This document shows positions 5,270 through 56,254 of a stretch of DNA of 56,254 nucleotides, one piece after another. The notes under the pieces are model-generated. The model was not told the origin of the DNA. It was given only the letters and a program-made list of their open reading frames with translations, and made no database searches. The translations under genes and the position numbers were made by a program. Source of the stretch: Calditrichota bacterium (GTDB taxonomy: Bacteria; Electryoneota; Electryoneia; Electryoneales; Electryoneaceae); contig JAANWZ010000044.1 in the NCBI GenBank assembly GCA_018263585.1, forward strand, positions 702-56,955. The letters are read 5' to 3'. Each line of letters begins with the position of its first letter. The first letter of the stretch is position 1.

Positions 5270-5390
5270 GTAACCGCAGCGTGCGCTTTCGAGTGGAAGA
5301 GCGGGGAGAGACCCGCCCTTCGCGTCAGTCGGCGCGCCTCGCAGTGTCATCCTGAACCCGCAGCGCCGGTCTGTTTCAGCGCGCCCCGCA

Positions 5391-5559
5391 GTGTCATCCT
5401 GAACCGCGCCGCCGTTTGTTCTTGTTGAAGCGGCGCGAGTGAAGGATCTACCGGCAAGAACGTCCCGGAGGTGGTATTGATATGACCGTTGGGCGGAGTA
5501 TCCGGTAGATCCTTCACCCTTCGCGCCAAACAGACGCCGCTTCGGGTTCAGGATGACAC
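5391..5559. repeat. Complete T-family nested inverted repeat
   Basis: The outer arms GTGTCATCCTGAACC (5391-5405) and GGTTCAGGATGACAC (5545-5559) are perfect complements. The inner arms GTGAAGGATCTACCGG (5439-5454) and CCGGTAGATCCTTCAC (5502-5517) are also perfect. Between outer and inner arm on each side lies a hairpin-like insert whose sequence differs from other copies of the family. Confidence 0.85.
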
Positions 5560-5893
5560 AATCCGCCTTTTTTGGTCGAGATCCTCCACCCTTCGCGCCG
5601 AAACGGACCGGCGCTTCGGGTTCCGGATGACACAGGTGGGGCGCCAAACTGATCGCGCTTCGGGTTCATGATGACGCGGACGGCGCGCTGCTCTTCTGTG
5701 TTGCCCGTGCGGGCTTGCCCGCGCAGCTGAACCGACTCTGAGTGGAGCCCGGCCTGCAAGCAGGCGCGGGGCATAGGAAGCTTGTCCCACCGTGCGCGGA
5801 ATACGGTCTCAAGCCGCAAGCCTCAGGTTCGCCCCCACACGGAACATGGCGGGCGCCCCGTTCCACTCCCACCGATCACGTCTCTCACCCGCT

Positions 5894-7080: not shown

Positions 7081-7154
7081 ATTGCCGGTCGGTAGAAGGA
7101 GATTCACGCAAACCTGATTCTCGTACGTACCACGTAGGGGTGTGAGGTGAATAG

Positions 7155-7174
7155 CGTGCGGCTTCAGCCGCACG
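7155..7174. repeat. F-family palindrome (REP) copy 1
   Basis: A perfect 9-bp-stem palindrome, CGTGCGGCT-TC-AGCCGCACG. In this window the family is confined to the transposase locus (copies at 7155, 7236, 7811 and 7918), as expected of cognate REPs of the adjacent enzyme. Confidence 0.85.
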
Positions 7175-7322
7175 GGAAGGGAAATAGACGCAAACCCGAT
7201 TATCGCGGCACCCCGTAGGGGTGTGAGGTGAATAGCGTGCGGCTTCAGCCGCACGGACCAGATCCAGCACAGCTTTGCGCGTCCTGTAGGGACGCCGCAT
7301 CCTCGAAACCCGAGAGGCGTCA

Positions 7323-7769
7323 ATGAAATCGTATAGGCAAACACTGGTTCACATCGTGTTCGCGACACGTCACCGTCAACCGGTTTTATCGAAAGAAAAC
7401 CGCGAACGGCTGTACCGTTATATCTGGGGCATTTGCAGACAGAAAGAATGCCGTCTCCACCGCATTGGCGGATACGACGAACACGTCCACATTCTTATCA
7501 GTCTTCATCCTTCAATATCTCTCGCTAACTTCGTGCAATTGATCAAGGGGCGTTCCTCGCATTGGATAACCGACGAATCCGTATTTCCCGGGTTTGTTCG
7601 GTGGCAGCGAGGTTACTCCGCGTTCAATGTGTGTTATAAAGAGCGTTCCAGGGTAGTCGAATATATTAAGAACCAGGAAGAGCATCATCATTCTGTCTCG
7701 TTTTTGGAAGAATACAGGGATCTGTTGGAGGACGCGGGCTTTGAGATGGACGAACGTTACCTTCCGTAG
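7323..7769 (+). CDS. Y1 (IS200/REP-associated tyrosine) transposase
   Basis: 148 aa, the size of single-domain Y1 transposases. The HUH metal-binding motif appears as DEHVHILISLHP (about residues 50-61), and the likely catalytic tyrosine is in VVEYIKNQEEHH (about 117-128). The QRGYSAFNVCY segment is typical of IS200-like and RAYT proteins. The enzyme would cut single-stranded DNA at hairpin-flanked sites through a 5'-phosphotyrosine intermediate. Base composition is clearly lower in GC than the neighbours (runs such as gaaagaaaac and tatattaag), indicating acquisition by transfer. The reading frame is intact. Whether it is an IS200 transposase or a domesticated RAYT is unclear; the flanking F-family palindromes favour RAYT. 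Confidence 0.9.
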   Translation: MKSYRQTLVHIVFATRHRQPVLSKENRERLYRYIWGICRQKECRLHRIGGYDEHVHILISLHPSISLANFVQLIKGRSSHWITDESVFPGFVRWQRGYSAFNVCYKERSRVVEYIKNQEEHHHSVSFLEEYRDLLEDAGFEMDERYLP

Positions 7770-7990
7770 CGCCGCCCCTACAGGGCGGGGGATCGATGGT
7801 TATTCCGATTCGTGTGGCTGAAGCCACACGCTATCTATCTAAAGCCCGTACGGGGCTGGCGAAGATATACGCAAACCTGATTCTCGTACCCGCCCCGTAG
7901 TGGTGTGCGGTTAATCGCGTGTGGCTTCAGCCGCACGGGAAGGGAAATAGACGCAAACCCGTTATTGTACTTCGCGGAAGGAAAATGTGA

Positions 7991-10440: not shown

Positions 10441-10481
10441 TCCGGCGGTCGCACGTTGCGGGCTGCGGGCGGCGGGCACAC

Positions 10482-10576
10482 ACAACCCTTGCCCTTGACT
10501 TTAGTCAAGGATAATCAAGAGTTTGGTCCACAACCGATGCCCTTGACTTTAGTCAAGGATAGTCAGGAGGTTGGTC
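10482..10576. repeat. E-family repeats 1 and 2 in tandem
   Basis: Two direct copies of an approximately 47-bp unit, each containing CCTTGACTTTAGTCAAGG, an 8-bp-arm palindrome around a central TT, followed by ATAATCA or ATAGTCA. Three more copies in this window are at 27284-27310, 43300-43329 and 56183-56212. Confidence 0.85.
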
Positions 10577-10578
10577 CG

Positions 10579-10888
10579 GGAGCGCTTGCGAAGATCCGGT
10601 TATGCAGTTAGCTCAGCCACGTGTATGGACCGGACTCTGAAGCACATTCGCGCAGCAGAGGCGTCATTCTGAACCCGGCTTCACGCGTCTGTCTGCGTGA
10701 AGACGGGTGAAGAAGGTCCAGCCTATCCGAGGGTTATGTCACGAGTTTCATTGTATCGTCCACCCTTGTCGAACCTGGACCTTCTTCCCTCAGCCCGACA
10801 AACGGACGTCGGGCTTCGGTCAGAATGACCCCTTTGCCACCCGCGATATTGGTCCCGGCTGAGCCAAAGGGATAACCGGGTGCGACCG
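10579..10888 (-). repeat. ME element copy 1 (inverted orientation)
   Basis: About 310 bp. It is the reverse complement of copies 2-4: outer end AGCGCTTGCGAAGATCCGGTT, then GTCATTCTGAACC, an inner GAAGAAGGTCC arm, a conserved centre of about 55 bp, GGACCTTCTTC, GGTCAGAATGAC, and an outer ATAACCGGGTGCGA. Ends are more degraded than in copies 2 and 4. Confidence 0.8.
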
Positions 10889-20696: not shown

Positions 20697-21015
20697 GGGG
20701 ACGCTTGCTCGCATCCGGTTATCCCTTTGGCTCAACCGGGAGCAATATCGCGGGAGGCAAGCGTGTCATTCTGACCGAAGCCCGACGTCCGTTTGTCGGG
20801 CGAAAGGAAGAAGGTCCAGGTCCGATAAGAGTGAAGGATACCGTGAAACTCGAGATATGACCCTTGGATAACTTGGACCTTCTTCACCCGCCTTCACGCG
20901 GACAGACGCGTGGAGCCGGGTTCAGGATGACGCCTCTGCCGCCCGGATGTGCTTCAGAGTCCAGTCCAGGCACATGGCTGCGCGAATGGCATAACCGGAT
21001 GCTCGCAAGCGTCCC
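20697..21015 (+). repeat. ME element copy 2
   Basis: 319 bp. The ends are inverted repeats, GGGGACGCTTGCTCGCATCC and GGATGCTCGCAAGCGTCCC, each continuing into the GGTTAT/ATAACC complement. Inside are GTCATTCTGA and a CCGACGTCCGTTTGTCGG hairpin, then GAAGAAGGTCCAG, a centre of about 55 bp, TTGGACCTTCTTC, a second hairpin, and TTCAGGATGAC. This copy has some of the cleanest termini. Confidence 0.88.
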
Positions 21016-27230: not shown

Positions 27231-27726
27231 TCGGCGGCGGGTGGCCCGGGGCTTCAGCCTCGGGACTCATCCACTTACCCTTGCCCTTGACTTTAGTCAA
27301 GGATAATCAAACGGTTGTCTGGCGAGGTTCGATCACCCGTTGTATGAGCCGCGGTTGCGAGCAACCGCGGGCCTGTAGCAGTGTCATCCTGAACAAGCGC
27401 GGCATTTGTGTGCCGCGCGCAGTGAAGGATCTCGAGAACTGACGGGGTATGAAGATGGGTCTGTGGATGAGGTTTCAACCCCGGTGGATGGGGTTTCGAC
27501 CCCGGCAGGGGTCGCAGGTGGATAGCCCCGGGCGTGAGCCCGGGGAGCCGCGCAGCGCCAACAATCGGAACCCCGATGGGATGATACATGATTGTTATTA
27601 TTGAAGATAACTGTCGCCCCTGTGGGGTTGACGGAAAACGTATCGGGGAGACGCGGGCGGCTCCCATCCCGGGGCTTACGCCCCGCGCTATGCGGATGTC
27701 GCCGCTTCGCGGCTGAAGGGGACGAC
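27231..27726. repeat. Repeat-rich region upstream of the ABC ATPase
   Basis: In order: D family 27240-27271 (CCCGGGGCTTCAGCCTCGGG); E family copy 3 at 27284-27310; A family 27344-27376 (CCGCGGTTGCGAGCAACCGCGG); half T element 27381-27432 (GTGTCATCCTGAAC to GTGAAGGATCT); D-like CCCCGGGCGTGAGCCCGGGG near 27530; and a different repeat-like block 27560-27690 with CCCATCCCGGGGCTTACGCC. No ORF is credible. Confidence 0.7.
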
Positions 27727-29920: not shown

Positions 29921-30466
29921 CCGGCCGGATGCAGCCGCACGGGCGACACACACGCCCGGTGGTCAGCGAGGGCGGAGTGGCTGCGCTATGCGCTATGCCC
30001 ATGCCTGCTTGGCAGGCATGGATGCAAGGGCGAGCATTACGCGGCCTTCCTCGCTCGGGGACGCTTGCGAGCAGCCGGTTGTCCCATTGGCTCAGCCGGG
30101 AGTAGTATCGCGGGCGGCAAAGGAGTCAGTCTGACCGAAGCCCGACGTCCGTTTGTCGGGCGAAGTGAAGTTTATCCTGAACGAAGTGAAGGGAAGGTCC
30201 AGGTTCGACAAGCGTGGAGGATACAATGAAACTGGTGATATAGCCCTTGGATAAGCTGGACCTTCTTCACCCGCCTTCACGCAGACAGACGCGTGAAGGC
30301 GGGTTCAGAATGACGCCTCTGCCGCGCGGATGTGCTTCAGAACCCGGTCCATGCACGTGGCTGAGCTAACGGCATAACCGAATGCGAGCAAGCGTCCCCT
30401 GCTTGCGCAGGGCGAGCGGATCCCGGCCTGCGAGCAGGCACGGGGCATATCCGCGGGAACCGGGGG
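29921..30466. repeat. Intergenic region dominated by ME copy 3
   Basis: 29921-30056 holds a fragment of an F-like GCAGCCGCACGGG and a TGCCTGCTTGGCAGGCA hairpin. 30057-30399 is ME copy 3. A G-family hairpin (CGGCCTGCGAGCAGGCACGGGGCAT) lies at about 30425-30449, just before the pnp stop. Confidence 0.65.
30057..30399 (+). repeat. ME element copy 3, with an internal insertion
   Basis: 343 bp. Terminal inverted repeats GGGGACGCTTGCGAGCA and TGCGAGCAAGCGTCCCC. It is about 24 bp longer than copies 2 and 4 because the left inner arm is replaced by GAAGTGAAGTTTATCCTGAACGAAGTGAAGG, which looks like an inserted T-family fragment. Confidence 0.85.
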
Positions 30467-32983: not shown

Positions 32984-33317
32984 TGCGCTCTCTCCTTCGA
33001 TCTCTATCTGTCTGTTGTTGCTCTTCTGTGTAAAGAGGCTCCGGAATAATGTGTCTCGTGCAAAGACTCGGCCCAGGGCGAGCGTGTCATCCTGAACCCG
33101 CGTGCGGCGTCAGTGTGCCGCATGCGGGTGAAGGAGGTCCGAGTCCGACCCCGGTGGACCATGGAAACACAACCGTCTGTTTACCTGGACCTTCTTCACT
33201 TCGCCCGACGAACAGACATCGGGCTCGTTCAGAATGACGTCGTCCCCGCGGCGCGCTGCTGCGCAATAGCCGCAGCCCGCAGCCCGCCCCCGCAGTCCGA
33301 AGTCCGCAGCCCCCACA
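32984..33317. repeat. Gap between ribF and rpsO with T-family element
   Basis: A T element occupies 33084-33240. Its left half, GTGTCATCCTGAACC with a GTGCGGC/GCCGCA hairpin and GTGAAGGAGGTCC, and its right half, TGGACCTTCTTCACTTC to TTCAGAATGACG, are both present. 33241-33317 is unremarkable. 32984-33060 is the presumed rpsO leader. Confidence 0.75.
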
Positions 33318-36690: not shown

Positions 36691-37119
36691 GCCCGCTCGT
36701 TGTTCAAGCCCGTACTCATGTCTTCGCTTCCGCGGCATCTCTTAGAGTAACGAGTTCCGAGTAACGAGTGTCGAGACGGCCTGTGCCCCGCGCCCGCTTG
36801 CAGGCCGGGCTGCATTCGCTGTGAATACACCGTCTGGTCAGCCGCGGTTGCGAGCAACCGCGGGCCTGTTTGGATTAGACCGCACGGCCGGTACTGTTCC
36901 GTGGGATCAGCCGCGCTGACCGCTGCGCCGTCCCCGCGGGCATTGTCCGGCGCACTCCGGGGACGCTTGCCAGCAAGCGTCCCCTTCCCATTCCACCCCT
37001 GTCGAACCTGGACCTTTCCTTCACTGCGTTCAGGATAAACTTCACTTCGCCCGGCAAACCGCCGCCGGGCTGCGTTGAGAATGACGCGGTGTCCGCCTGT
37101 CCGCATGTAGTTTGTTCCA
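36691..37119. repeat. Repeat insertion between infB and ylxP
   Basis: This 429-bp gap in a normally compact operon contains a G-like hairpin near 36785-36812, an A-family hairpin 36837-36870, a B hairpin 36904-36943, a 26-bp palindrome 36959-36984 that equals two ME termini joined (GGGGACGCTTGC-CA-GCAAGCGTCCCC), and a T half 36999-37087. Confidence 0.75.
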
Positions 37120-43216: not shown

Positions 43217-43509
43217 GTGCGGCTCTGCGTGCTCGTGCCGGTCCCGGGCGCGTTCCGTGCCCATCTCACGGCCCGGGCCTCCCGCTCGTCGTGTAACCTC
43301 TTGATTATCCTTGACTAAAGTCAAGGGCAGGGGTATGAACGGCTCATCCACCGGTCGAATTAACCCTGCGACATCCCGCATTCGCTGCGCTACGGCTGGC
43401 TGTCACAGGGGCACGGGCGAGATGAGACCCGAGGCTGAAGCCCCGGGCCACCAGCCGGCGACCCCGGGCTACTTCTGGCCCCCCAGCTCGCCCGATCTGT
43501 CCCGGCCTG

Positions 43510-51802: not shown

Positions 51803-52430
51803 GCAGCCCTCATCCCTCGCGGGTGTTACGAAAAACACCGGCCGCGCGTTCCGCAACCGATGTTCCGCTCCTGATTCGCGCGCCGGTCGGATCAACCGCG
51901 CGGGCGGCAAAGAACAGCTTCTGCCGAGCCGCGGTGACGGCCTTCGGCGCGTCCCCGCGGGCATGGCAAGCAATGTGCCCCTGTGACAGCGCGCAGCGAT
52001 GTCGCAGGGCTCGCTGCGGGGACGCTTGCGAGCATCCGGTCATCCCCTTGGCTCAGCCGGGACAAGTATCGCGGGTGGCAAAGGAGTCATTCTGACCGAA
52101 GCCCGACGTCCGTTTGTCGGGCGAAGGGAAGAAGGTCCGAGTTCAACAAGGGTAGAGGGTATAATGAAACTCGAAAAACAGCCATTTGGTAAGCTGGACC
52201 TTCTTCACCCGCCTTCACGCAGACAGACGCGTGAAGCCGGGTTCAGAATGACTCCTCTGCCTCCCGAATGCGCTTCAGAATCCGGTCCATGCACGTGGCT
52301 GAGCGAACGGCATAACCGAATGCGAGCAAGCGTCCCCCTTCGCGGCAACCGTTCGGGCTATGTGCGCACCGCAGCCGGGCCGCACGGGCGGTACTGATTC
52401 GGCGACCGACGACAATCCATCGGCCGGATT
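51803..52430. repeat. Gene-free region with B, C and ME elements
   Basis: B hairpin 51925-51964, C hairpin 51975-52010 and ME copy 4 (52018-52337) lie end to end. 51803-51920 may hold the MBL promoter; 52338-52430 shows nothing. Confidence 0.7.
52018..52337 (+). repeat. ME element copy 4
   Basis: 320 bp. Termini GGGGACGCTTGCGAGCATCCGG and TGCGAGCAAGCGTCCCC; inner arms GAAGAAGGTCC and GGACCTTCTTC are perfect. Outer T arms are GTCATTCTGACC and GGTTCAGAATGAC. It abuts a C hairpin on its left. Confidence 0.88.
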
Positions 52431-56044: not shown

Positions 56045-56254
56045 CAATCCACACGGTCTCCCCGGGACACACGCCGTCGCCATGCCCGCGGGGACGGGCC
56101 GCAGGCCGTCACCGCGGCTGATACAACGGAGCATGAGACCCGAGGCTGAAGCCCCGGGCCACCCATTCTCTTGACTTACCTTGTGATTATCCTTGACTAA
56201 AGTCAAGGGCAAGTCTGTACAGGCCCGCGGTTGCTCGCAACCGCGGCTGATACA
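56045..56254. repeat. Repeat cluster at window end
   Basis: B hairpin 56081-56122, D unit 56132-56163, E copy 5 at 56183-56212 and A hairpin 56219-56254 follow each other with almost no other sequence. Confidence 0.75.

Follow-up and report, generated by a model that had tools for sequence, protein, structure and literature searches.

A probable IS1595-family MITE inserted in short palindromes and carrying a hairpin repeat unit in a Calditrichota genome

Target duplications of 8 bp are usual for elements of the IS1595 family (PMC8101967), an experimentally studied member of which favours insertion between T and A (PMC7835479). Non-autonomous elements belong here too: an IS1595-type MITE of Haloquadratum walsbyi, a relative of ISHwa6, is 165 bp long and present in 7 copies, with 25-bp ends and an 8-bp duplication (PMC3852290). 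ISs that target REP sequences (ISPsy8, ISPa11, ISPpu9, ISRm22 and others) have been assigned to the IS3, IS110, IS4, IS256 and IS5 families, among which IS1595 is absent, the corresponding table giving a weak association, 2/17, for IS1016 (PMC1525189). We discuss below a short element found in the window, that is, the whole 56,254-nucleotide stretch of Calditrichota DNA analysed, and in many other places in the same genome. Judged from sequence, we consider it, with a probability of roughly 0.92, to be an IS1595-family MITE that would be moved in trans by an IS1595-type transposase. As a mobile element it is of a known kind; what is unusual is its choice of target and its internal cargo.

An earlier note on this DNA had described four copies of a nested inverted repeat with a conserved centre. 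The four copies are present as claimed and align over their whole length (Table 1), copies 1-3 being 84-87% identical to copy 4, far above chance (E 6e-96 to 1e-108). Their limits, by contrast, had been misplaced: the supposed terminal inverted repeat, GGGGACGCTTGCGAGCA, occurs in some copies only and is part of the target site, the sequences taken as termini being those of a target palindrome. In an alignment of 30 copies, similarity starts at TCCGGTTAT and ends at ATAACCGGA, at the same base across copies, so that the termini are sharp and the true element, TCCGGTTATCCCTTTGGCTCAGC...GCTGAGCGAACGGCATAACCGGA, is 283-333 bp long. The supposed conserved centre is the spacer of an inner unit and one of the less conserved regions, at about 0.76-0.84, compared with 0.92-0.95 for the motifs GTCATTCTGA and GAAGGTCC and about 0.86 for the outer ends.

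Copies are numerous beyond the window. The assembly (2.85 Mb, 165 contigs, 92% complete) holds 125 element ends with up to 3 mismatches, compared to 0 matches for a reversed control pattern at the same threshold, and when it was searched with the element, about 40 of the best 40 candidates, out of 285, were long matches. An end-pair scan recovered at least 52 two-ended copies, nearly all 283-333 bp long and one of 253 bp, from 1.09 Mb of this genome, a non-random sample of stretches picked mostly for bearing element ends. Median pairwise identity of the copies is only 0.80. The most similar pairs (98.6%, 97.2% and 95.5%) lie in unrelated flanks, and the composite has therefore moved as one unit, in some cases fairly recently. 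None of 60 relatives yielded a complete copy of the element in a full-length search, and the two hits obtained by scanning named genomes with the pattern, one in a Gemmatimonadales MAG and the other in Cohnella tandem repeats, were judged chance or unrelated.

Table 1. Element copies, inner units and target sequences in the window (window positions), and loci of a second MITE-like family (L-numbered stretches).
Feature	Position	Strand	Remarks
MITE copy 1	10595-10880	-	286 bp; duplication decayed, 5/8 bases; end-pair scan
MITE copy 2, TCCGG...CCGGA	20714-20999	+	286 bp; end-pair scan; perfect 8-bp duplication TGCTCGCA
MITE copy 3	30074-30382	+	309 bp; carries 23-bp insert GTTTATCCTGAACGAAGTGAAGG
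MITE copy 4	52035-52320	+	286 bp
Inner unit, copy 1	10663-10829	-	
Inner unit, copy 2	20765-20931	+	GTCATTCTGA - hairpin 1 - GAAGAAGGTCC - spacer - GGACCTTCTTC - hairpin 2 - TCAGGATGAC
Inner unit, copy 3	30125-30314	+	
Inner unit, copy 4	52086-52252	+	
Left duplication TGCTCGCA of copy 2	20706-20713	.	
Right duplication TGCTCGCA of copy 2	21000-21007	.	
Left part of interrupted palindrome GGGGACGCTTGCTCGCAAGCGTCC at copy 2	20697-20713	.	"Element end" of the earlier note
Right part of GGGGACGCTTGCTCGCAAGCGTCC palindrome at copy 2	21000-21015	.	With second 8-bp copy
Perfect duplication TGCGAGCA of copy 3	30066-30073 and 30383-30390		
Palindrome GGGGACGCTTGCGAGCAAGCGTCCCC split by copy 3, span	30057-30399	.	
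Perfect duplication TGCGAGCA of copy 4	52027-52034 and 52321-52328		
Palindrome GGGGACGCTTGCGAGCAAGCGTCCCC split by copy 4, span	52018-52337	.	
Second MITE-like family, loci	L178:9013-9227, L105:14522-14736, L111:9688-9902, L150:7068-7284, L165:16124-16337, L104:4645-4854		

The outer sequence GGGGACGCTTGC..GC is a separate short palindrome (GGGGACGCTTGCNNGCAAGCGTCCCC), in the centre of which the element has inserted. It flanks some copies only, others having CCGCGGTTGC..GCAACCGCGG palindromes or unrelated sequence around them, and it occurs uninterrupted elsewhere (77 copies in the 1.09 Mb, with up to 3 mismatches, including some inside MITE copies, e.g. in L018), which identifies it as target and not as element end. 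Insertion is accompanied by duplication of 8 bp, the length at which mean flank identity over the 52 copies reaches 0.74, as against 0.20-0.35 at the other lengths in the 5-12 bp range. Duplications are perfect in 16 of the 52 copies and match at 7 or more of the 8 bases in 24, compared to a mean of 3.1 and a maximum of 8 in 1000 shuffles of the flanks. The preferred target, taken as the consensus of reconstructed empty sites, is the palindromic TTGCNNGCAA, with insertion between T and A (T/TGCNNGCA/A), and in this genome short REP-like palindromes commonly have such a site at their centre. Strong palindromes over 24 bp mark 14 of the 52 targets (27%) but only 0.2% of random positions. Other repeats in the window include an interspersed palindrome, CCTTGACTNTAGTCAAGG, within a 40-48 bp repeat (10481-10576, in tandem; 27273-27320; 43296-43329; 56178-56211), and a close inverted repeat at 548-657 with 52-nt arms, 83% complementary and 6 nt apart.

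A search for the ends in the 60 relatives located autonomous elements with matching ones. In G006, which belongs to the same family as the genome studied here, and in G001, DDE_Tnp_IS1595 genes are flanked by ends that match those of the element to within 2-3 of 22 bases, the paired ends lying ~995 bp and ~982 bp apart, respectively; the transposase of the G006 element has 299 residues (DDE_Tnp_IS1595, E 2.6e-32; Zn_ribbon_IS1595, 2.2e-16). Many short elements with these ends and other middles occur in G006 and G026, and several of those in G006 likewise have a TTGC..GCAA target. The earlier proposal of a non-autonomous mobile element is thus borne out by the sharp termini, the duplications and an autonomous relative that has ends of the same kind, and the shared inverted ends, 8-bp duplication and short, multi-copy build without a transposase gene place the element among IS1595-family MITEs. 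In G026 (L196, L197, L255-L274), about 40 or more MITE copies with the same IS1595-type ends were seen, their hairpin core, GGAGTAGCGCAGCTTGCTGCGC, being a different one; they often lie at contig ends, which suggests repeat-driven assembly breaks.

In the element's own genome, the PF12762 profile and a protein search detected no IS1595 transposase, and several contigs of the assembly end inside copies of the element; the trans-acting enzyme was presumably lost from this genome or left unassembled. In the mechanism we propose, the MITE would retain nothing but two ends for an IS1595-type DDE transposase to recognise, its middle being filled by one local palindromic unit. The transposase would bind the ~23-bp ends in trans, move the whole composite and join the ends to 8-bp staggered cuts, preferably at TTGCNNGCAA sites, and a partner IS of about 1 kb would bear TCCGGTTATCCC ends together with the transposase gene. 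The MITE may have arisen by internal deletion of an IS. By eye, the end of its left arm, ...GTGGCAAAGG, resembles the IS start ATGGCCAAGG, and a decayed transposase C-terminus might be made out in its right arm, whereas the repeat in the middle is unrelated to the IS; the case for derivation from one specific IS is only suggestive.

The repeat family to which the inner inverted repeat belongs is much commoner than the MITE; its units consist of the motif GTCATYCTGAAC, a hairpin (loop near GTCNGTTT), the motif GTGAAGGATCT or GAAGAAGGTCC, a spacer, and then the reverse-complement arrangement. With up to 2 mismatches, the first motif has 524 copies in the 1.09-Mb sample, 107 of them within MITEs. 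Paired units stand outside two-ended MITEs 112 times in the sample (a few in MITEs cut by contig ends), and for this reason we regard them as a separate family. Hairpin arms vary widely among 114 distinct inserts, which fold at a mean of -16.2 kcal/mol versus -8.6 kcal/mol for shuffled inserts. The 52 MITE copies, for their part, have recognisably the same two hairpins in the same place, which is most simply explained if the unit was captured once, before the MITE amplified, and we infer such a history. Genome-wide, the GTCATYCTGAAC-hairpin-GTGAAGGATCT/GAAGAAGGTCC family is very abundant (in the window at 1747-1870, 5346-5631, 33077-33246 and 36992-37100), its arms varying freely and mostly well paired, its loop (GTCNGTTT) recurring and its hairpin piece often in tandem arrays. 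The GTCATYCTGAAC motif is also present in G006, mostly without hairpins, and a literature text search with the inner motif strings returned nothing relevant and no name for the family.

A second MITE-like family, whose members have ends GCAGACTGTTGAAAAA and measure about 217 bp (Table 1), bears the same kind of inner unit. A broader idea, rather doubtful, is that this IS1595 branch recognises palindromic TTGCNNGCAA, perhaps as extruded hairpin tips, and that its MITEs home to REP-like repeats, a harmless landing place, and in turn serve as vehicles that multiply host hairpin repeats, as the unit borne by the second family would suggest. When we asked whether the MITE cores of relatives also stand free as host repeats, 18 of 20 core motifs in G006 and 39 of 40 in G026 lay inside or next to MITE ends; with nearly all of them tied to such ends, the rule of free-standing repeats is not extended beyond this genome.

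The foremost rival to an IS1595-family MITE, a structured non-coding RNA in which the inverted repeats would be conserved stems round a core, also goes back to the earlier note, which had envisaged four hairpins. The consensus does fold into one long hairpin and two side hairpins (-163.8 kcal/mol), RNAalifold on the alignment giving weak structure only. Covariation favours the two small hairpins, both parts of the inner unit, with 7 compensated cells versus 1.0 in shuffled columns for hairpin 1 and 30 versus 8.6 for hairpin 2, but the source of this signal is the inner repeat family, a separate one, and the shuffle control leaves relatedness in. No such excess is seen for the outer arms or for the long inner stem, where compensatory changes fall below the shuffled mean (9 versus 12.1 and 9 versus 12.0), and broken cells amount to 13.5% in the outer-arm stem and 28.9% in the junction stem. 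The window contains no match to an Rfam family, and the copies have no preferred orientation relative to genes (26 tandem, 10 divergent and 6 convergent, by a crude gene caller), other intergenic spacers of at least 200 bp being alike (190, 57 and 39). An RNA of four hairpins round a core is accordingly unsupported for the whole element, whose outer and long stems have no compensatory excess, and we hold it to be very improbable. A terminator or regulatory role for the element was also considered, with no evidence for one.

Still less credible is that a RAYT (Y1 tyrosine transposase) has spread the element as one of the REP/BIME type. Three Y1_Tnp proteins are indeed encoded in the genome, one of them in the window, and the element sits in REP-like palindromes, of which the genome has many. 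Single-strand Y1 transposases, however, make no target duplications, and the element has 8-bp duplications, in place of the duplication-free insertion of REP/BIME elements, as well as DDE-type inverted ends matching those of IS1595 elements. The Y1 gene of the window (7323-7769, + strand; RAYT-like, PF01797, E 5.4e-25) is flanked at 7100-7256 and 7811-7961 by palindromic repeats with GCGTGYGGCTTCAGCCGCACGG, with which it forms a candidate REP-RAYT module; two further Y1_Tnp genes lie elsewhere in the genome. Just as implausible is a pair of static repeats that overlap and owe their copy number to recombination or gene conversion instead of transposition, since, while conversion among hundreds of copies could cause the better conservation of the inner motifs (0.92-0.95) than of the outer ends (about 0.86), static repeats are contradicted, for the outer element, by the sharp ends at the same base, the copy-specific 8-bp duplications and the unrelated flanks; gene conversion may have homogenised the sequence of the inner unit.

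Read as an IS1595-family MITE, the element adds one such MITE in this lineage and, as far as the searchable literature shows, is the family's first case of homing to REP-like palindromes. Small transposons and palindromic repeats here nest in one another and spread jointly, which helps to account for spacers rich in repeats in such genomes, and readers of genomes are warned that what looks like the end of a repeat may be the repeat's target. With IS1595-family ISs (ISPna2, IS1016, ISSod11, ISH4 and related groups) the element shares the type of ends, the 8-bp duplication and the T/A cut, but it has no transposase gene and measures 283-333 bp as against about 1 kb, and its target is the GC-rich palindromic TTGCNNGCAA, unlike the AT-rich site of ISEc69/Tn7052 (PMC7835479). 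The H. walsbyi MITE, likened to it by description, is also non-autonomous, of the IS1595 family and flanked by an 8-bp duplication, but has an archaeal host, is shorter and has fewer copies, and the available part of its account mentions neither palindrome targeting nor repeat cargo. Like the REP-targeting ISs, the element inserts repeatedly into short extragenic palindromes, with the difference that it is a MITE. Finally, Correia, RUP, ERIC and RU-type repeats are, like it, short intergenic non-coding repeats with inverted ends; they depend on other transposase families, and their duplications differ in length, those of Correia and RUP being TA.
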